A DNA stretch of 51,659 bases from a virus: IMG/VR virus record IMGVR_UViG_3300050821_014022, positions 1 through 51,659 of that record. The stretch is one strand, 5' to 3'. Each line of letters begins with the position of its first letter. Positions within the stretch are counted from its first letter, which is position 1. The notes below the pieces were generated by a model. It searched no databases. It was not told the origin of the DNA and saw only the letters and a list, made by a program, of their open reading frames with translations. This document shows positions 2,954 through 19,870 of the stretch, in pieces. The position numbers and the translations under genes are program-made.

Positions 2954-3316
2954 TCAAGGCTCCTTCCCCCGCTTCAGCACTTGATGTATGTACTGCCTTG
3001 AGACTCCATGTTGATCAGCGATCTCTTGAAATGAGGAGCCGGTAGCTCTGGCCTGGAGGAGCGCTGACAAAAGAGAATCCCACTTGGACGTACGCTTTTT
3101 CTTGTGCGGTTTCCGCGGCTCGTGGCGTTGTTCCTTAGTCCGATGCTGTGGACAGTAGATGCGGGCGACTGCGCCTCGCCGATTCTCCCCTACTCGCCAG
3201 CCGCGGCTTCTGGCTTCGTATGGAGTTTCCCAACGAGAACCAGTAAAGCTAAACAGACTCTTACATCCGGGAAAATCACAAGCGACGATAATCTGCAAAC
3301 AGTGTCTTAGATCCAT
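2954..3316 (-). CDS. Small zinc-finger/HTH DNA-binding protein
   Basis: This 120-residue protein combines a zinc-finger-like N-terminus (CDFPGCKSLF, later YCPQH) with a basic linker (HKKKRTSKW) and a C-terminal helix-turn-helix (SSFQEIADQHGVSRQYIHQVL). It probably binds DNA as a phage regulator. The start at 3316 is set by GGAGG six bases upstream. It is the last gene of a leftward operon that begins near 4689. Confidence 0.65.
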   Translation of the reverse strand: MDLRHCLQIIVACDFPGCKSLFSFTGSRWETPYEARSRGWRVGENRRGAVARIYCPQHRTKEQRHEPRKPHKKKRTSKWDSLLSALLQARATGSSFQEIADQHGVSRQYIHQVLKRGKEP

Positions 3317-3551: not shown

Positions 3552-3799
3552 AGGTCCACTTCGATCGGCATCACCATGCCCGATGGATCGGTGCCGAAAC
3601 GGAAGAAGCGCTGGTTGGGATCGGGCTCGTCCAGGAATTCAAACTCGATGTAGTGCAGCCGATGTTCGGCCATCGCTTTGGCATGCCGCTCCGCGACATC
3701 CGGCAACAGTTTCTCGAGGTCGGTATCGGCGATCAGGACGCGATCTTCAAACTGGACCTTGCCCGCAGCATATCCGCGGATGACAACGCGAATGATCAT
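3548..3799 (-). CDS. Small hypothetical phage protein
   Basis: An 83-residue protein starting MIIRVVIRGYAAGKVQFED, with an acidic C-terminal half (YIEFEFLDEPDPNQRFF) ending in PIEVDL. It overlaps both neighbours by four bases (ATGA), so translation is coupled in both directions. The start at 3799 is chosen for that overlap. No domain recognised. Confidence 0.55.
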   Translation of the reverse strand: MIIRVVIRGYAAGKVQFEDRVLIADTDLEKLLPDVAERHAKAMAEHRLHYIEFEFLDEPDPNQRFFRFGTDPSGMVMPIEVDL

Positions 3800-4080
3800 A
3801 ACGGGTCCACTCCGAAATCCACAGCCAGCGTGATCCAGACTTCGATACCTCGCCGGGTGTTCAACTGGCGAACTCCTTTGCGCAACCACGCCAGTTCAGC
3901 GCGGCCGGAATCCTGAAGGTGCGGGTTATCATCCCAGACCGGGGAATCGATCCACTGGCGCAGGTATGCCGCGATCAGCGCGATGTCGTCAGCGGAAAGA
4001 TCGGCGCCATTGAGATACCGCGCCACGGCCGGGCGCAGCTTGCCGCCGGTTTCATCCATCCAGTAGTCGGGCGCGCTCAT
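3796..4080 (-). CDS. Small hypothetical phage protein
   Basis: The 94-residue protein carries LRPAVARYLNGADLSADDI followed by AAYLRQWIDSPVWDDNP and a C-terminal segment ending in AVDFGVDPL. This looks like a compact helical protein of the kind found in phage early operons. The start at 4080 is set by an ATGA overlap with the upstream RHH gene; the longer start at 4101 would run into that gene. Confidence 0.55.
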   Translation of the reverse strand: MSAPDYWMDETGGKLRPAVARYLNGADLSADDIALIAAYLRQWIDSPVWDDNPHLQDSGRAELAWLRKGVRQLNTRRGIEVWITLAVDFGVDPL

Positions 4081-4262
4081 GCCTTGATCTTCCTCAACCA
4101 TATTCTCAGAGCTTCGATAATTGCCTGATTTTGAGAGATCCGCAACCTGAATGCCGCCACCCTGAGTTGCTCGTACAAGTCCGATTCAAGCCGCGCGGTG
4201 ACTTCTTTCCTTTTTGGGTTGTCTGGCGCCAGACAACCTTTTTCGGTGCGGCTGCTAATCAT
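4077..4262 (-). CDS. Ribbon-helix-helix DNA-binding protein
   Basis: In this 61-residue protein, RKEVTARLESDLYEQLRVAA has the alternating pattern of an RHH strand plus first helix. NQAIIEALRIWLRK then forms the second helix, as in CopG/Arc-type repressors. It overlaps neighbours on both sides by four bases. A perfect 22-bp palindrome lies inside its 5' coding region and is a candidate site for its own product. Confidence 0.65.
   Translation of the reverse strand: MISSRTEKGCLAPDNPKRKEVTARLESDLYEQLRVAAFRLRISQNQAIIEALRIWLRKIKA
4217..4238. promoter_or_regulatory. Perfect 22-bp palindrome, candidate operator
   Basis: GGTTGTCTGGC is followed immediately by its exact reverse complement, with no spacer. 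The palindrome lies within codons of the RHH gene that starts at 4262 and about 480 bases downstream of the operon promoter. It could be an internal operator or an RNA hairpin affecting translation. Confidence 0.5.
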
Positions 4263-4462
4263 GGCACGCGCGCCACGCAGCGCCGGTGCATGAGCACGCC
4301 CCGATAGGGCTTACCGTCCTCCATCTTTTTGGTTTCGCCGCAGTTCGATGGCACCAGGAAGCAGAGGTCACCCGCTGCCAGCGGCTGGACGCACAGCAGA
4401 CAGGTGCCTCGTTCCTGGTTGACTACGACTTTAGTGTAAAGGGCGGTTTCGGCTGCTGTCAT
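4259..4462 (-). CDS. Small zinc-binding protein
   Basis: The 67-residue product has CLLC, then LCFLVPSNCGE, and a C-terminal LMHRRC, giving a C-x2-C...H-x2-C zinc-binding pattern of the type seen in small phage proteins that sit on DNA or other proteins. Four-base overlaps couple it to both neighbours. Role unknown. Confidence 0.55.
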   Translation of the reverse strand: MTAAETALYTKVVVNQERGTCLLCVQPLAAGDLCFLVPSNCGETKKMEDGKPYRGVLMHRRCVARVP

Positions 4463-4689
4463 TTTCGTGCTTGCTCCAAATACCGGCGGACGTGGGTTTC
4501 AGTATCGGACTGCCGGATGGCGGCCGCCAGGGCAGCGCCGGCCGCTTCCTGCTCCGTGGGATATCGTTTGCCGCCCACTGTTGTATGAAGCTGCAGGTCC
4601 GCGGCGTCGTACTCACCAAGCACGGACAGGCCGGCCTTGTAAGCGCCCTCGCCGGCGACTTGTACCGTCTGGATCAGAATTGTCATCAT
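4459..4689 (-). CDS. First gene of the leftward accessory operon, hypothetical
   Basis: A 76-residue protein beginning MMTILIQTVQVAGEGAYKAG. GGKRYPTEQEAAGAALAAA and a basic helical end follow. AGGA lies three bases before the first ATG and six before the second (4686), so the second may be the real start. It is directly downstream of the candidate promoter at 4710-4738 and heads seven tightly overlapping genes. Function unknown. Confidence 0.55.
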   Translation of the reverse strand: MMTILIQTVQVAGEGAYKAGLSVLGEYDAADLQLHTTVGGKRYPTEQEAAGAALAAAIRQSDTETHVRRYLEQARK

Positions 4690-4709
4690 GATTCCTAGTG
4701 GTCAGAGTA

Positions 4710-4738
4710 CGAATATCATTTGGCTCTGTCGGTGTCAA
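4710..4738 (-). promoter_or_regulatory. Candidate sigma-70 promoter for the 4689-2954 operon
   Basis: On the minus strand, TTGACA (4733-4738) is a perfect -35 box. Seventeen bases later, TATTCG (4710-4715) is a weaker -10 box. It faces left into seven coupled small genes and lies back-to-back with the rightward SLATT-like gene. Confidence 0.5.
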
Positions 4739-4770
4739 GAAACCGTTAAAATAGTAGTGCGGCGCCTCGC

Positions 4771-5244
4771 ATGTTGACAGAAGAGCAAACAAATCGGGTT
4801 TGGGAAAAGATGCTCTCGGCCCGTGTGCGGTCGCTGTACTTCGGCAATCTGGCGGCGCGTTATACGGCCCGCAAGCAGCTAATAACCGGGCTCTCGTTCG
4901 TTCTCTCCTCTGGAGCAGCCGCCACAGCCCTGGCGAGAATGCCGGTTTGGGTGACATCGACGTCTGCAGTCCTCGCCGCGATCCTGACTGCCTACTCCAT
5001 GGCCGTTGGCCTTGACAAGGCTGCTCCGCAAATGGCGAAGTTGCACCATGAATGGAATCAGCTGGACGCCGACTATCATCGGCTCTGGGTTCACTGGTAC
5101 GAAGACGAAGCCGAAAAGACGTTTGAGGAATTGCAACGCCGCGGCGCCGATGTATCGGAAATAGGCACGGGCGCCCCTTTCGACGAGAAACTGATGGCGA
5201 AGTGGGAAGACTGGGTGCTATTGGCTGAGTACGGTCGCGCATGA
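4771..5244 (+). CDS. SLATT-like two-TM membrane protein
   Basis: This 157-residue protein has a short N-terminal helix and two TM segments (near GLSFVLSSGAAATALA and STSAVLAAILTAYSMAVG). A long charged helix follows (HHEWNQLDADYHRLWVHWY). That order matches SLATT-type small effectors, which accompany nucleotide-signalling conflict systems and are thought to perturb membranes. No SMODS or SLOG partner is encoded nearby, so an alternative is a holin-like or superinfection-exclusion protein. Its stop overlaps the next start as ATGA. Confidence 0.55.
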   Translation: MLTEEQTNRVWEKMLSARVRSLYFGNLAARYTARKQLITGLSFVLSSGAAATALARMPVWVTSTSAVLAAILTAYSMAVGLDKAAPQMAKLHHEWNQLDADYHRLWVHWYEDEAEKTFEELQRRGADVSEIGTGAPFDEKLMAKWEDWVLLAEYGRA

Positions 5245-11653: not shown

Positions 11654-12030
11654 AGCCGCCTCGTTTCTGGCGGCGTCGGGAAAAACCGCGAATTGCTTCC
11701 ACGGGTTATCCACGGACTTTGGCCCGCCGGCTGCGCTTGATCTTGCGCACCCGCGGCTGGTTCCAGAACTTGGTTTTGCATTTGGGGCACTTGCGGGGCG
11801 CGTGGGCGATTCGGCGCAGCCAGGCGTGCCGGCAGCGGTTGCAACGAAGGATGAGCGCCGCCAGAATGTTCTTGGGCATTGGGTAAGTCTATCATGCGGG
11901 AACCTCCCAGAATCGCTGCCGCCCACATCGCCATCAACCCGGCTGGGTAGCGCCGCGGATCCGCGGCGATGATTTCGGCCGCGGCGCGGTTCTGGCCGGC
12001 GTACCTGTCAGCGGGTAGCGTCCGTTTCAT
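11650..12030 (-). CDS. Hypothetical protein, C-terminal half doubtful
   Basis: The first ~45 codons encode MKRTLPADRYAGQNRAAAEI and DPRRYPAGLMAMWAAAIL, which look like real phage protein. Downstream the frame becomes Pro/Gln-rich and covers the whole zinc-ribbon gene at 11706-11879 in another frame, a sign of non-coding reading. Either two genes truly overlap, or a frameshift has extended this one. The ATG lies three bases after the upstream stop. Confidence 0.35.
   Translation of the reverse strand: MKRTLPADRYAGQNRAAAEIIAADPRRYPAGLMAMWAAAILGGSRMIDLPNAQEHSGGAHPSLQPLPARLAAPNRPRAPQVPQMQNQVLEPAAGAQDQAQPAGQSPWITRGSNSRFFPTPPETRRL
11706..11879 (-). CDS. Zinc-ribbon protein, 57 residues
   Basis: A short frame encodes MPKNILAALILRCNRCRHAW, then RKCPKCKTKFWNQPRVRK and a basic end. 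CNRC plus CPKC is a classic zinc ribbon, and the FWNQPR ending recurs in small prokaryotic zinc-ribbon proteins, so this is the likely true frame here. No clear ribosome-binding site precedes the ATG; GGAGG lies too far upstream and aligns with another ATG. Confidence 0.6.
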   Translation of the reverse strand: MPKNILAALILRCNRCRHAWLRRIAHAPRKCPKCKTKFWNQPRVRKIKRSRRAKVRG

Positions 12031-13809: not shown

Positions 13810-14078
13810 TGCGGTCTTTCTCCTTCATGCAGAGATCCCAGATCGAGCACCACCACGCCTAGCGCGTCCAGTTGCCGCTCCAGGATCGCCAGGTCATCCG
13901 CAAATCTGTTGTTATGCGCGTGGCCGAGCACCCAGCACAAGACGTTGAGCGTGGGGACGACGAGGTGCCGAGAGTCCTCGGCCACAGTCGCCTTCAGCAG
14001 CTTCTCGTCGAGCACCAGGCTCACCAGCACATCGTGTGCGCGCTGAATCTCGTTGACATCGCGAAGGGTGATGGTCAT
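13806..14078 (-). CDS. Small hypothetical phage protein
   Basis: The 90-residue product starts MTITLRDVNEIQRAHDVLVS. It continues with VPTLNVLCWVLGHAHNNRFA and an acidic helical end. The ATG at 14078 overlaps the stop of the ParB-DUF5131 gene (ATGA), which excludes the longer upstream frame. It may work with that protein, though only position suggests it. Confidence 0.5.
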   Translation of the reverse strand: MTITLRDVNEIQRAHDVLVSLVLDEKLLKATVAEDSRHLVVPTLNVLCWVLGHAHNNRFADDLAILERQLDALGVVVLDLGSLHEGERPQ

Positions 14079-15535
14079 GCAATCACCTTCAGATAGTGAA
14101 ATGGCCCCGGTGCCCGATCGCGCTCCGTTTCCACTGCGCCCGGATAATTGCGCAAACGCATCGCGAGATTGTCCTTGTGGTAAACGGCGCAACCAGCCGC
14201 CTGTGCATTAAACGTGATGTCCCATATCCAGCGGCGAGGTGGACGCCATTCCGGCGTTTGACTACTGGGCGAAGCGCCACCGATGACGATCCAGTTAAAG
14301 ATCGACCAGTTCATCTCGATAGGCTCGATCAATGGTTCCAGGCTCAACCAGCGCACAGACGCCTTCACGTTTGCCATGGCACGCTCCGCATTCTTGACCC
14401 GAGCCTGTAGGTCAACTGAAGTGCCGAGCCACGCGTTGGGTGGATATTCGAATTCGGCCATTCGGATCGGAAACTTTGTCAGGAAGAGAAAATTCCACTG
14501 AGGATTGGCCCGGACCTGGTCCAGCACCAATTCGATCCATTGTGCTGGCACCCACTTGCCGAACAGGTCAGCCATCGAGCAGACGAAGACATTGCGGTAG
14601 CCGAGATCATGTTCCGCACGCGCTGGCACGTTGGTATTCGCCGGGGCTTTAAGTGTAGCGGGGAGTAAGGTGGGCGTAAACTTCTGAGGGTAGAATCGCT
14701 CCGCGATATCGCGAGCATAGCAGTATGGACAGTTGTGAAGGCAACCAGTTACCGGATTCCACGACCACTGCGCCCATTCGATGCTGGTGCTATCCTGTGC
14801 GTTAAACTCTTTGGTGCTGGTCCGTTCGACAATCTGTTGACGCGACTTCGCGCTCAGGGATTCCCACTCCTCGATGAGATAGCGGTCCTTTTCCGGCGCG
14901 GTTTTTTCAGCTTTATGGCGCTTCAATTCATCGCGCAGTTCGTCAACGGTCCACTGTTCTTCAAGAAGTTGTTCAACCCATTTCGGCCACGTTTCGGGCA
15001 GCGCAGCGTGAATCTCAGAAAGATGCTTCATATAGGGCAGGAGCGTTGAGTAGTCCCTAGGGACTACTGCCGCTACATCCGCAGCGTATTTCCACTTTCT
15101 TACCGTAACTTCATTGATGTGGATCTCATCTGCATATGCCCGAAGCGCCATACCAGTTTCATCGATTGCGATCCGTGCATGTTCGCCACGTTCCAGCGGA
15201 TGCAACTCGCTCTGTGCATTGGAGAGGATCAACTGCATGAAAGCGCCTGCATCGTCCAGATCACGCACCCACGCCGGTACATCTTTCAGCCCGGCCTCTC
15301 CTGCCGCGATGGCTCGATTATGGCCGCTGATAATCTGGTAGCCCTTTTCAAATGGCCGAACGATCAGCGCGTGCGCCGGATCGAATTCGCCCGCTTCGCG
15401 CAACTGCGCTGCGATGGCTTCGATGACGTCACGCCGTTCGATCTTCCGCGGATTCTGCGGATGCGCCTGGAGCAACTTCAGCGGCACGTTCTTTAACTGG
15501 GCGTCGTTTTGCTTCTTCATTGGTATGGCACTCAT
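14075..15535 (-). CDS. ParB-like/DUF5131 fusion (CxxxCxxC, radical-SAM-like)
   Basis: The 486-residue protein joins two domains. Residues ~15-210 form a ParB/Srx-type domain with HPQNPRK (25-31) and ISGHNR (69-74), then a HTH-like segment (NEVTVRKWKYAADV). Residues ~250-486 match the phage Gp37/Gp68 family (DUF5131), with the three-cysteine motif CLHNCPYC (265-272) that resembles the iron-sulfur motif of radical SAM enzymes. TcmP-type partners are known to accompany this family, and one lies two genes upstream. Substrate and reaction are unknown; nucleic acid modification is plausible. Start may instead be 15520. Confidence 0.8.
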   Translation of the reverse strand: MSAIPMKKQNDAQLKNVPLKLLQAHPQNPRKIERRDVIEAIAAQLREAGEFDPAHALIVRPFEKGYQIISGHNRAIAAGEAGLKDVPAWVRDLDDAGAFMQLILSNAQSELHPLERGEHARIAIDETGMALRAYADEIHINEVTVRKWKYAADVAAVVPRDYSTLLPYMKHLSEIHAALPETWPKWVEQLLEEQWTVDELRDELKRHKAEKTAPEKDRYLIEEWESLSAKSRQQIVERTSTKEFNAQDSTSIEWAQWSWNPVTGCLHNCPYCYARDIAERFYPQKFTPTLLPATLKAPANTNVPARAEHDLGYRNVFVCSMADLFGKWVPAQWIELVLDQVRANPQWNFLFLTKFPIRMAEFEYPPNAWLGTSVDLQARVKNAERAMANVKASVRWLSLEPLIEPIEMNWSIFNWIVIGGASPSSQTPEWRPPRRWIWDITFNAQAAGCAVYHKDNLAMRLRNYPGAVETERDRAPGPFHYLKVIA

Positions 15536-15725
15536 GGCAAGTTCCGATCATATTACCGGGAGTATCAAAGGCCCCCCGAACCGGGTAGTCCATATGATGT
15601 GGCTCTACCGACGGGCGGCTCTGGCATTTTTCGCATATCCCTTTGTTCCGCATCAAAGCGATACGCCGCATGATGCGAAAAACCGGATGTTGGAGATATT
15701 CAGAATAGGTTAAGGGTGCTTTCAT
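15429..15725 (-). CDS. HNH endonuclease
   Basis: A 98-residue HNH nuclease: CEKC (31-34) and CHEC (63-66) form the zinc knuckle, HH (43-44) carries the catalytic histidine, and N58 and H67 complete the motif. HNH proteins of this size nick or cut DNA; in many phages they sit beside terminase, but here the gene is lodged between the TcmP-like and ParB-DUF5131 genes. It overlaps the former by 26 bases and the latter by 107, so all three are one translational unit. Confidence 0.82.
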   Translation of the reverse strand: MKAPLTYSEYLQHPVFRIMRRIALMRNKGICEKCQSRPSVEPHHMDYPVRGAFDTPGNMIGTCHECHTNEEAKRRPVKERAAEVAPGASAESAEDRTA

Positions 15726-16437
15726 TGCGGCTGAAACTCCGTTGGATGATTTCCCCTGCCTTGGGGGAATCCAATTTATGGAACCGCATCCGTGACCAGT
15801 TTTTAAATTCGAAATTCCTACCTACCAGGATCATGAATTCGTGTATGTCGCAACCCAGAGGTTCCTGAATTATCCAATGCTGCTTATCCAAAGAATGGAG
15901 GAGTTCGGCCAGATAGAGTTGCGCCGATTGAATGCCCGCGCCCCGCGCCCGCTTCCAAACGCGTGCAGGGTAGTTGATAACAAAATCTAGGCGAGGGCAG
16001 ATTCGCGCCAACTGCGCGAGTTCGTTCAAGGGGAGATCTATTCCATTCGGATCACAGAGGACCGTGCCGAGCGCCTTCGCAGGATTTCCATGATCCAGAC
16101 GGATCAAATCGGGAATGGCTTTGACGAACTCCCGGTTCTCCCCGTTGTATGCGGTGCAGCCTGGCCTACCTTCGATTCTCGTCAACAGTTCTTTGATGGC
16201 TTCCCGGTCCCGGTCAACGAAGTGTGCGCTGAAGTTTGAAACACTCTGTGCGTCGGCCACATTCAGAAAAACAAGGGGGCTTCCTTCGCATCCGACTTCA
16301 TGGTTATAACCGCATCCCGAGTTGAGATCGAAGTGGTGATACCGAAAGCTCGACTTTTTTTGAACTGCGAGGTTCATCCAGAAGATGCCGCGGAATGCGC
16401 TCTCCTTCAATACAGTTGTTTTTCCTTGCCCGTGCAT
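15700..16437 (-). CDS. TcmP-like three-Cys-motif partner protein
   Basis: This 245-residue protein has a Rossmann-like start (YHHFDLNSGCGYN, residues 33-45) and EGSPLVFLNVAD (51-62). An acidic strand follows (AHFVDRDREAI), then VLCDPNGIDLP (127-136) in the place of the methyltransferase-type D-P-x-G loop. This order matches TcmP proteins, found next to DUF5131 three-cysteine proteins, as here. Whether it binds SAM is not shown. GAGG six bases before the ATG supports the start. Confidence 0.65.
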   Translation of the reverse strand: MHGQGKTTVLKESAFRGIFWMNLAVQKKSSFRYHHFDLNSGCGYNHEVGCEGSPLVFLNVADAQSVSNFSAHFVDRDREAIKELLTRIEGRPGCTAYNGENREFVKAIPDLIRLDHGNPAKALGTVLCDPNGIDLPLNELAQLARICPRLDFVINYPARVWKRARGAGIQSAQLYLAELLHSLDKQHWIIQEPLGCDIHEFMILVGRNFEFKNWSRMRFHKLDSPKAGEIIQRSFSRNESTLNLF

Positions 16438-17173: not shown

Positions 17174-17851
17174 CTACTTCGGCTGCGCTTCAGCCGGCGG
17201 CACCGGCTTGCTGAAATCCGGCGGCGTGGGCACCCAGGCCCAGCGCGGCGGCTTCGGCTTGCCGGGGCAACCATGCACCGGGACGCCGAAATCGGGATCG
17301 GTCGGCACCCAGTCTCCTCCTGTTGGCGGCAGAGGCATGCCGGCCGTTGGTGGCGGCGTTTCGGGAATGCCATAACCCGGATCGGGCGGGAAAACTCCAA
17401 TGACCGGTGGTTTACCGAATCCAGGATCTAAGATCGCCCAGTCGCCGCCGCCCCAGATGTGCGGCGGTTGAGATGGAGGTAGACCGTTGTCCGGGTGCGG
17501 CGGCAGGATTGGTATGCCGGGAGGTTTGCCGCCGGGGTGCGCGGGAACCCATGGCAGCCCTTGACTGGGATGGCCGCCGCCGTAGATCGGGCCGGTACTG
17601 GGATAGCCGCCCCCGTAGATAGGACCGGTGCTGGGATAGCCGCCCCCGTAGATAGGACCGGTGCTGGGATGCCCACCACCGTAAATGGGACCACCGCTGA
17701 TGTGTCCGCCGCCGGGCAGCCCTTGGCTGGGATGCAGACCGCTGCCGATTCCCCAATCTGGGTCCACTGGCGGCGTCACACCGAAGCCTGGATCAAGTGG
17801 TCCTTCAGGCACCCATATAAATACAGGTACAGTTACTCGTTTAAAGCCCAT
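17174..17851 (-). CDS. Gly/Pro-rich tandem repeat protein
   Basis: This 225-residue protein is built from low-complexity repeats. Four tandem GPIYGGGYPST-type units (about residues 50-95) are flanked by PDPGFG and PDPGYG motifs and PSQGLP. It has no TM segment and one cysteine. AGGAG eight bases before the ATG and a terminator just after the stop suggest its own control. Extended Gly/Pro/Tyr repeats could make an unstructured or self-associating protein; function unknown. Confidence 0.6.
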   Translation of the reverse strand: MGFKRVTVPVFIWVPEGPLDPGFGVTPPVDPDWGIGSGLHPSQGLPGGGHISGGPIYGGGHPSTGPIYGGGYPSTGPIYGGGYPSTGPIYGGGHPSQGLPWVPAHPGGKPPGIPILPPHPDNGLPPSQPPHIWGGGDWAILDPGFGKPPVIGVFPPDPGYGIPETPPPTAGMPLPPTGGDWVPTDPDFGVPVHGCPGKPKPPRWAWVPTPPDFSKPVPPAEAQPK

Positions 17852-18064: not shown

Positions 18065-18571
18065 TCACCTCCGCAGCAACGAGATCGATGGTTCGCGCAG
18101 ATGCGCGCCTGGCACGTTTGCGCCAGCGTCTATCGCCTTTTTGATGCCGCGTTTGTCGATCACAATCTCCTGCTTAATCGTTTTGAATTGCGGAGGGACC
18201 AGTTCCCCGTCGTCGATTTCCACGCCTGGCTGATTGGTGCGCAGCGTCAGCTTCGAGGTATTGCCGTCCAACTTGCGCAGACCCAGTGATTGAAGCGTCC
18301 AGATGGCATACTGCTCGAGTCTCTCCTCCAGATTCTCGAAACGCGACTTGCGCGCCTTCAGCCGCTCGATCTCTTTAGCAGCCAGGTCCGCCTGCGACTC
18401 GAGGTGCGCCAGGAACCGGCAGAAGTCATCCACTTTGCGGATCTGCAACTCAACGGTCTGCCGGATCTCGGCCTCGCATTGCATCCGCTGCTCATCCGTC
18501 TCGCACATGTCATAGCTATCGAGCAGCGCCACCAGAGTGTCCGAAATGTCGTACAAAGTGAGCGAGGACAT
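18065..18571 (-). CDS. Gp157-family phage protein
   Basis: The 168-residue protein fits the siphovirus Gp157 family. It opens LTLYDISDTLVALLDSYD, then a long coiled coil (LESQADLAAKEIERLKARKS, ERLEQYAIWTLQSLG) and a C-terminal beta region with KLTLRTNQPGVEIDD and IDKRGIKKAI. Family members lie next to recombination genes, as here beside bet, and have been linked to phage defence resistance in streptococci. The ATG overlaps the upstream stop (TAATG). Confidence 0.8.
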   Translation of the reverse strand: MSSLTLYDISDTLVALLDSYDMCETDEQRMQCEAEIRQTVELQIRKVDDFCRFLAHLESQADLAAKEIERLKARKSRFENLEERLEQYAIWTLQSLGLRKLDGNTSKLTLRTNQPGVEIDDGELVPPQFKTIKQEIVIDKRGIKKAIDAGANVPGAHLREPSISLLRR

Positions 18572-18759
18572 TAATCATCCTCCGCGTCGTCTTCTACGGG
18601 CTCCACTTCCGGGTATTCCGCATCCACGACAGAATCGTCCAGCAACAAATTATTAACAGCCCTTACGATCAGCTTGGCGTCCATGGCAGTCTGACACTGG
18701 CATACCGGACGGTCGCCATCGTACACATTGATCGGAACCTTGTTTCCTGTTCGCCACAT
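18571..18759 (-). CDS. Small protein with KVPINVYDGDRPVCQC motif, copy 2
   Basis: This 62-residue protein is a paralogue of the 7947-8165 product, with the same core (WRxGxKVPINVYDGDRPVCQC...DAxxIVxAVN). Its tail is highly acidic (EPVEDDAEDD) rather than zinc-binding. Sitting between bet and Gp157 suggests recombination-related work. Function unknown. Confidence 0.6.
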   Translation of the reverse strand: MWRTGNKVPINVYDGDRPVCQCQTAMDAKLIVRAVNNLLLDDSVVDAEYPEVEPVEDDAEDD

Positions 18760-18762
18760 AAA

Positions 18763-19731
18763 TCATTCCCCTTCGCCGGGTTCGCGGGGTTCTATGAATT
18801 CTTCCGCGGTTTCAGGCGCCGGCTGGCGCAGTGCTTCGGCCTGCTCGATGGCTGACCACATGGCCAACGATGCCCGCCGGGCGGGTTTCTGGCTTTTGAG
18901 TTCGTTGGCATGCGCTACGCCGGATTCGCGCAGGATTCGATAGTATTCAGTCGTTCCGGCATCGCCCATGACCTGGATTAACCGCGTCTTGAGTTCGGCG
19001 AAGACGTTGCAGACTTCTTTGATGCCGCGCATCGATTCCCACATCATCTTCACGGCAATGGGAATATCTTCCATGGTGTCCGCGGGCCTGGCCGGCGTGG
19101 CAGCGGCCGGCGGCGCCGGCGGCAGATCGTTGTCGGCCTGGCCTATTTCTTCGCTGCCGTACAGACCGCTCAACTCTTCGGGAAAGGTTTTGCGCAAAGC
19201 CAATGCCTCGCAAGATTTTCCGAGCATGGCCGCGGGCATCTTGCTCCACATGGAATTTGGCTTGCCCTCTTTGTTGAACTGCACATACTCGGAATAGAGC
19301 GCCACTGCATAGAGCGGTTTAGCGAAGCCCTTCCTGAAGACACCGACCTTGGCCGCTGCCGGCGGGTGCGCCCTGTCGAGCCAGACGTCGGCCCAGCGGC
19401 CGTCTGGGCCGCACCAGAACGGCCCTTCCTGCCCTTCGTAGCGGCCGGTACGTTCCGCGATCAAGCGAAGACCGTCAATGCCGGTCTGGTACGTCATGAC
19501 CTCGCGCTTGAGAGTGCCGTCCCAGCGTTTGATGGCGTGGATCTGCCGGGAGAACGGGTCCAGGTTTTTGCGGCGGCACACCTCGACAAAGAGCTTCAGT
19601 TCGTCGCGGTTGGCGCCCTTGGCGATCGTATCAGTGAGCAGTTGGATTTGCTCTTTGGATAACTCCAACTGGACAGGCGCGGCCGGCGTTCGGGCCACTG
19701 CCAGTTCCGCGGTGCTTTCAGTTTTGCTCAT
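18763..19731 (-). CDS. bet: Bet/RecT single-strand annealing recombinase
   Basis: This 322-residue protein is a phage Bet/RecT-type annealase. Family landmarks are ELKLFVEVCRRKNLDPFSRQ, then AIKRWDGTLKREVMTYQTGI, DGLRLIAERTGRYEGQEGP, and a conserved AAMLGKSCEALALRKTFPE. It anneals complementary single strands during recombination and concatemer formation. The usual partner exonuclease (lambda Exo or RecE) is not recognised here; the VRR-NUC protein at 7111-7485 might serve instead. The C-terminus (~220-322) is Pro/Ala-rich then helical. The start at 19731 overlaps the upstream microgene. Confidence 0.88.
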   Translation of the reverse strand: MSKTESTAELAVARTPAAPVQLELSKEQIQLLTDTIAKGANRDELKLFVEVCRRKNLDPFSRQIHAIKRWDGTLKREVMTYQTGIDGLRLIAERTGRYEGQEGPFWCGPDGRWADVWLDRAHPPAAAKVGVFRKGFAKPLYAVALYSEYVQFNKEGKPNSMWSKMPAAMLGKSCEALALRKTFPEELSGLYGSEEIGQADNDLPPAPPAAATPARPADTMEDIPIAVKMMWESMRGIKEVCNVFAELKTRLIQVMGDAGTTEYYRILRESGVAHANELKSQKPARRASLAMWSAIEQAEALRQPAPETAEEFIEPREPGEGE

Positions 19732-19870
19732 ATCGGCTAAACCTCTCGCGCTCGATCCGGGCAATGCATTCTTCGGCACAGTGCGCGCAGAGCCAGTCGT
19801 ACAGGACGGCCTTTACCCCAGGCACGGCATGGCAGCGGTCGCAGAGATAGACTTTGTCATCGGTAGACAC
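19718..19870 (-). CDS. Zinc-finger microprotein, 50 residues
   Basis: A GTG-started frame encodes MSTDDKVYLCDRCHAVPGVK, then YDWLCAHCAEECIARIERER and a short tail. C-x2-C-H...C-x2-C gives a zinc finger. AAGGAG lies eight bases before the GTG. It overlaps the 5' end of bet by 14 bases. Probably the first gene of the bet transcript. Confidence 0.55.
   Translation of the reverse strand: MSTDDKVYLCDRCHAVPGVKAVLYDWLCAHCAEECIARIERERFSRYEQN

Follow-up and report, generated by a model that had tools for sequence, protein, structure and literature searches.

The locus examined here raises the question of what a phage does with a ParB domain fused to a DUF5131 protein, a small HNH nuclease and a TcmP-like protein, all encoded by overlapping genes. 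The window, meaning the whole stretch of DNA that was analysed, comprises the 51,659 bases of IMG/VR virus record IMGVR_UViG_3300050821_014022. It encodes a terminase, a portal, a major head protein, a tail fibre, RecT, a Gam-like protein, a replication initiator and a serine recombinase, which identify it as a tailed phage, possibly a temperate one in view of the recombinase. The cassette is flanked by RecT on one side and the serine recombinase on the other, and is enclosed by a run of recombination and replication genes (Gam-like, RecT, replication initiator). The Gam-like end-protection protein adjoins RecT at 18065-19779 in a phage recombination module. Immediately upstream of the cassette, at 17174-17851, lies the gene for a Gly/Pro-rich protein of 225 residues with near-perfect GGGYPSTGPIY repeats. 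No Rfam match and no tRNA were found in the window.

The cassette and its recurrence

An earlier note on this DNA had described three overlapping leftward genes, and this layout holds. All three reading frames are on the minus strand, namely those of a TcmP-like protein (15700-16437; 245 residues), a mini-HNH endonuclease (15429-15725; 98 residues) and a ParB_N-HTH-DUF5131 fusion (14075-15535; 486 residues). The overlaps between them are 26 and 107 nt.

A first search with the fusion protein gave 11 viral relatives; a TcmP-like gene lies upstream in all of those with enough upstream DNA, and in about half of them an HNH gene sits between the two. The family counts given below are based on a wider search, which yielded 72 distinct DUF5131 genes with an N-terminal extension. 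A TcmP-like neighbour is found at 58 of these and an HNH gene at 26, with TcmP present in all 26. The order TcmP-(HNH)-X-DUF5131 is repeated among divergent phages and is therefore not due to chance.

Individual loci depart from this arrangement. Three of them (L014, L092 and L093, of which L092 is from an Edaphobacter genome) form a close clade without TcmP; in L014, an unrelated reading frame of roughly 300 codons (4076-4974) overlaps the start of the fusion as an alternative partner. In L103 and L104, TcmP is replaced by ParB-looking proteins of about 280 residues (LTDGQNRLNAI), encoded directly before the fusion. Two plasmids of cultured Streptomyces, L194 and L196, have the fused cassette without HNH. 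The commonest real neighbours are DNA methyltransferases, which were rejected as informative; they occur near 20 of 71 cassettes and near 10 of 24 standalone DUF5131 genes, and so are not enriched.

Properties of the three proteins

The fusion of ParB to DUF5131, also proposed in the earlier note, is borne out by Pfam, with both domains exceeding their cut-offs. ParB_N (residues 13-108; 15212-15499) scores 53.1 bits against 26.3 (E 3.3e-14), and DUF5131 (PF07505; residues 250-455; 14171-14788) scores 139.5 bits against a gathering score of 28.9 (E 1.8e-40). The whole-family ParB/Spo0J model TIGR00180 gives 58.1 bits, with a cut-off of 58.45, and the Arg of the P-motif is present (GHNR, residues 71-74). 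Relatives with solved structures include Noc and ParB. The structure model (pLDDT 93) resembles ParB, Noc and KorB in its N-terminal half.

The N-terminal domain is exchangeable. Our own profile finds ParB_N in 49 of the 72 fused genes (Pfam, at E <= 0.01, in 20), and by that profile the remaining 23 have a non-ParB domain, one of them matching DUF3102. Along the DUF5131 tree the domain type has switched at least 17 times, and its clustering is only moderate relative to shuffles.

The DUF5131 half carries a CX3CX2C motif (CLHNCPYC, residues 265-272; 14720-14743), whose three cysteines are invariant in 72 of 72 fused relatives. The radical SAM profile PF04055 scores 16.3 bits against a cut-off of 29.5 for the window protein, and matches at E <= 0.01 in 35 of the 72. 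Weak structural matches are to RlmN (E 3.5e-3) and spore photoproduct lyase (E 5.1e-3). Together with the conservation, this fits a predicted radical-SAM enzyme that does not reach the family cut-off.

Neither of the other two proteins reaches its family cut-off, but their identities are secure, as the earlier note had assigned them, because both are conserved in relatives. The HNH protein scores 20.1 bits (E 7e-4) where Pfam demands 21.4; its residues C31, H43, H44, C63, C66 and H67 are invariant in 26 relatives. The upstream protein scores 41.4 bits with TIGR04474 (TcmP; E 1.6e-10) and is classed as TcmP-like since the NCBIfam cut-off is 53. Matches to TIGR04474 at E <= 0.01 occur in 32 of 56 relatives, the best at 1.1e-45, and the three-cysteine CX3CX2C protein that defines a TcmP partner is found one gene away, as the DUF5131 fusion.

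The fold of the TcmP-like protein (AlphaFold2 model, pLDDT 91.7) is that of a class I SAM methyltransferase, and the top solved structures in Foldseek are those of RlmJ (E 2.9e-10, TM 0.57), the 23S rRNA A2030 N6-methyltransferase. Its motifs are K11, D37xxxGxG, GSPL (52-55) and D129-PNG; all 56 of 56 relatives compared keep K11, D37 and D129 unchanged. In RlmJ, K18 and D164 are required for catalysis (PMC3814359). Judged by fold and order, K11, D37 and D129 would be the counterparts of K18, motif I and D164, and the catalytic Lys/Asp pair is likely to be common to both. RlmJ differs in having DPPY in place of DPNG at motif IV and in standing alone, and kinship at the sequence level is not significant (hhalign probability 7%). 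The DPNG motif and the insignificant sequence comparison are the reasons why the protein is said to work like RlmJ, a predicted likeness based on the fold and the K/D residues, and is not filed as RlmJ.

A nuclease confined to the cassette

The tie between the HNH gene and the cassette was examined with a context-free scan in which 2.9 million viral contigs were searched for DNA encoding YPxWGxFDxP. Two of the 46 matches are due to chance and 44 are true HNH relatives, all of which (44/44) adjoin a TcmP-like gene, a fused DUF5131 gene or both. Two protein searches for homologues gave the same picture, with 31 of 31 loci inside cassettes (many contigs being shared with the pattern scan), and neither approach found a member of this HNH family elsewhere. 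In L208 and L227 a single uninterrupted reading frame encodes TcmP and then HNH; L040 appears fused likewise, its frame being interrupted by the contig end. The position of the gene varies, being upstream of TcmP in L058 and downstream of DUF5131 in L062, L063 and L066. The earlier note named an HNH gene that is not conserved next to the pair as a refutation. No such gene is present in 42 of 68 scorable cassettes, but the link is supported in that the family is exclusive to the cassette and sometimes fused to TcmP.

The nearest HNH domains, those of Cas5-HNH of type I CRISPR systems, IscB and McrA, have an HNH core with zinc-binding cysteines in common with the window protein (E 1.6e-7 to 1e-3). 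Unlike these, the present family consists of free-standing proteins of 75-98 residues, or is fused to a methyltransferase-like protein, and no guide-RNA partner is seen for it.

Palindromes within the fused genes

The coding sequence of the fusion contains, immediately 3' of the HTH codons, a perfect 20-bp palindrome, AGTAGTCCCTAGGGACTACT (15049-15068). No second copy occurs in the window, even with three mismatches allowed, and a search of other viral contigs did not find it either. Elsewhere in the window, a perfect 22-bp palindrome, GGTTGTCTGGCGCCAGACAACC, lies between reading frames at 4217-4238, distant from the cassette, and a perfect 18-bp one, CGCCGCGGATCCGCGGCG, at 11951-11968.

Other fused genes also carry palindromes, each with a different sequence. 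In the part of the gene that precedes the DUF5131 domain, spacer-free palindromes with arms of 8 nt or longer (16 bp) are present in 30 of 72 fused genes. Of 831 control segments, matched in length and drawn from the contigs that carry these genes, 18 have one (odds ratio 32, p 5e-24), and the DUF5131 halves of the fused genes contain none. There is one palindrome per locus at 37 of 37 loci. A cultured example is the fused gene on the plasmid of Streptomyces caniferus NBC_00270 (L194), with a palindrome of 30 bp. Fused genes with a non-ParB N-terminus carry them as well. No association with the nuclease was found (14 of 26 genes with HNH and 16 of 42 without, p 0.22), and TcmP genes and canonical pairs showed background levels only.

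What is selected in these palindromes is the symmetry of double-stranded DNA. When the set was widened to 91 genes, spacer 0 alone was enriched, with 38 cases at 12.7-fold the control density, against 0 to 6 for other spacers. Fourteen genes of one lineage have the core GCAGATCTGC in common. It lies in the linker that joins ParB_N to the HTH, and the A-D-L that it encodes is the sole constant spot of this otherwise hypervariable linker. These 14 genes, picked by the core alone, were used for a covariation test on nine flanking pairs. Complementarity holds in 71% of the cells, compared with 43% in shuffles, and both sides are changed in 39 cells; the covariation score was reached by no shuffle and was lost when partners were slid. 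The near absence of G-U pairs (2 of 90 paired cells) and the lack of a loop argue for selection on the DNA duplex; an RNA hairpin was rejected on the same G-U count and on the enrichment of spacer 0 only.

The role of the palindrome is less straightforward. Arms differ among proteins that are near-identical in ParB_N and HTH, and it is therefore not a simple HTH operator. Nor is it a general trait of ParB genes; none was found in 16 ParB genes unfused to DUF5131 at the same loci or in nine plasmid and phage ParB-HTH relatives, and among 29 ParB genes of chromosomes there is a single case, with a 10-nt arm. On some chromosomes, a ParB-family gene holds its own palindromic site (parS-in-parB). 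The cassettes resemble this in having a palindrome inside a ParB-family gene, but their palindromes are gene-specific, have variable yet symmetric arms, and are also present with a non-ParB N-terminus.

Instead of being bound by protein, the palindromes might be the sites or the scars of a DNA process (template switching, cruciform formation, the opening of hairpin ends, or recombination that exchanges N-terminal domains), which we consider somewhat unlikely. In favour of such a process are arms of arbitrary sequence that nevertheless match each other exactly around a fixed core, the location of the palindromes where the gene is variable, and the 17 or more changes of N-terminal domain. It accounts less well for the constancy of the core amid a hypervariable linker, and for the lack of palindromes in the DUF5131 half and in the unfused ParB relatives (0/9 and 0/16).

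Relation to known systems

A bacterial pair of TcmP and DUF5131 (TIGR04474 with PF07505/COG4422; PADLOC PDC-M30) belongs broadly to the same families, with adjacent genes and the CX3CX2C motif. In a sample of one bacterial class, TcmP is present in 58 of 299 genomes; at 30 such loci a DUF5131 gene is adjacent in 27, mostly of stand-alone size. The phage version adds the fused DNA-binding N-terminus, often the HNH and the palindromes; among the 30 bacterial loci no HNH or ParB gene was found within 1.5-kb flanks, and no long palindrome in the TcmP or DUF5131 gene. Downstream of one bacterial pair (L182), an identical 28-bp palindrome, GTAGGGGCAATTCATGAATTGCCCCTAC, occurs at 3217-3244 and 3652-3679 and looks like an interspersed repeat.

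With the PADLOC models, the DUF5131 part of the cassette matches PDC-M30B and PDC-M41B (E 1.8e-35 to 3e-37), and the TcmP part matches PDC-M30A marginally (E 0.0046). Fusions of ParB folds to methyltransferases and to domains of unknown function have been surveyed in phages (PMC12704722). Among them, ParB with an N6_N4 methyltransferase (PHROG 498) resembles the cassette fusion in that an N-terminal ParB fold is attached to a phage enzyme with a possible role in nucleic-acid modification; its enzyme half is a methyltransferase, whereas that of the cassette is DUF5131. In the literature searched, with preprints and most subscription journals outside it, the term DUF5131 was not found, nor any function or defence test of PDC-M30, nor anything on the function of in-gene palindromes. 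The TcmP-DUF5131 pair is thus already known as a candidate without an assigned function (PADLOC PDC-M30/M41), and the cassette, with an HNH of its own, exchanged DNA-binding domains and palindromes embedded in its genes, appears to be undescribed.

Proposed mode of action

The reading that we tentatively favour, while falling short of calling it probable, is that the cassette is a phage system for nucleic-acid modification whose target is most likely the phage's own DNA and whose nuclease is optional. The RlmJ-fold methyltransferase (TcmP-like) and the radical-SAM-type DUF5131 enzyme would act sequentially on one base. The N-terminal ParB-HTH, or the domain that substitutes for it, would tether the DUF5131 enzyme to the phage's own DNA, and the in-gene palindrome is a candidate for the cis site at which it loads or which it recognises. 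In cassettes that have an HNH, this might nick or cut wrongly marked DNA in the manner of restriction-modification. The reading draws on the TcmP-like neighbours of most fused genes, on an HNH that is confined to the cassettes, is fused to TcmP in places and diverges along with DUF5131, on the setting among recombination and replication genes, and on the symmetry of the palindromes.

The earlier note had likewise proposed DNA modification or DNA targeting rather than metabolism. The RlmJ-type fold, the ParB-HTH and the HNH uphold this as far as nucleic acid in general is concerned. Gene content and order, the linkage, the folds, the invariant motifs and the palindrome symmetry are observed, whereas we infer that DNA is the substrate, and likewise the chemistry, the use of the palindrome as the protein's own site and the discrimination by the HNH. 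RlmJ and RlmN, which besides spore photoproduct lyase are the nearest folds of known function, act on rRNA, and this counts against DNA. Further points against the proposed mechanism are the radical-SAM similarity, sub-cut-off and structurally weak, the methyltransferase neighbours, no more frequent than at standalone DUF5131 loci, the lack of HNH in most cassettes, the variable arms under a constant ParB_N/HTH, and the lack of a further palindrome copy nearby.

A bolder form of the favoured reading is a self-addressing system for DNA modification, of a kind not described so far, in which the in-gene palindrome, with its fixed core and symmetric arms, would mark the encoding DNA as self; loading there would lead to modification in cis, and the HNH would remove unmarked DNA. 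We regard this version as rather doubtful.

Modification of RNA is an alternative that we rate as unlikely. The targets would be tRNA or rRNA, for example as protection against RNA-targeting toxins of the host, and the N-terminal domain would only regulate expression through the in-gene palindrome. RlmJ is the top PDB fold for the TcmP-like protein, and the few radical-SAM folds that match, all weakly, include RlmN; however, the dedicated HNH has the fold of a DNA nuclease and is fused to TcmP in places, the radical-SAM half is fused to a DNA-binding domain, and the palindromes are under selection as DNA symmetry.

A role in prophage defence or superinfection exclusion, as a variant of PDC-M30/M41, seems equally improbable. 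In such a system the HNH or another effector would attack incoming phage DNA, with TcmP and DUF5131 protecting or sensing. The strong matches to PDC-M30B and PDC-M41B (with 0.005 for PDC-M30A), an HNH-methyltransferase linkage reminiscent of restriction-modification, and the serine recombinase of a maybe temperate phage all agree with this. The cassette is, however, situated within the recombination and replication run and not at the usual edge for accessory genes, and most cassettes have no HNH. Two other PADLOC candidates showed no defence activity when tested (PMC12409345), which also speaks against it.

Least of all do we expect the HNH to be a homing endonuclease that has landed repeatedly in the operon and is unrelated to the enzymes: it has been gained or lost at least 16 times along the DUF5131 tree (with only moderate clustering relative to shuffles), as homing would predict, but homing is ruled out by the exclusive context (44/44 and 31/31 loci) and the in-frame TcmP fusions, with the variable position and a divergence that follows that of DUF5131 (Mantel r 0.35, p 0.0005) pointing the same way.

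Significance

Although TcmP and DUF5131 are widespread, neither has been assigned a function, and the cassette offers testable handles on the pair. In the phage version a DNA-binding domain, a dedicated nuclease and a palindrome inside the gene connect the two with DNA. Should the palindrome serve for self-recognition, it would be a new means of telling own from foreign DNA. Taken together, the cassette and its hidden palindrome suggest that a phage may mark or police its own DNA in a manner not described before.
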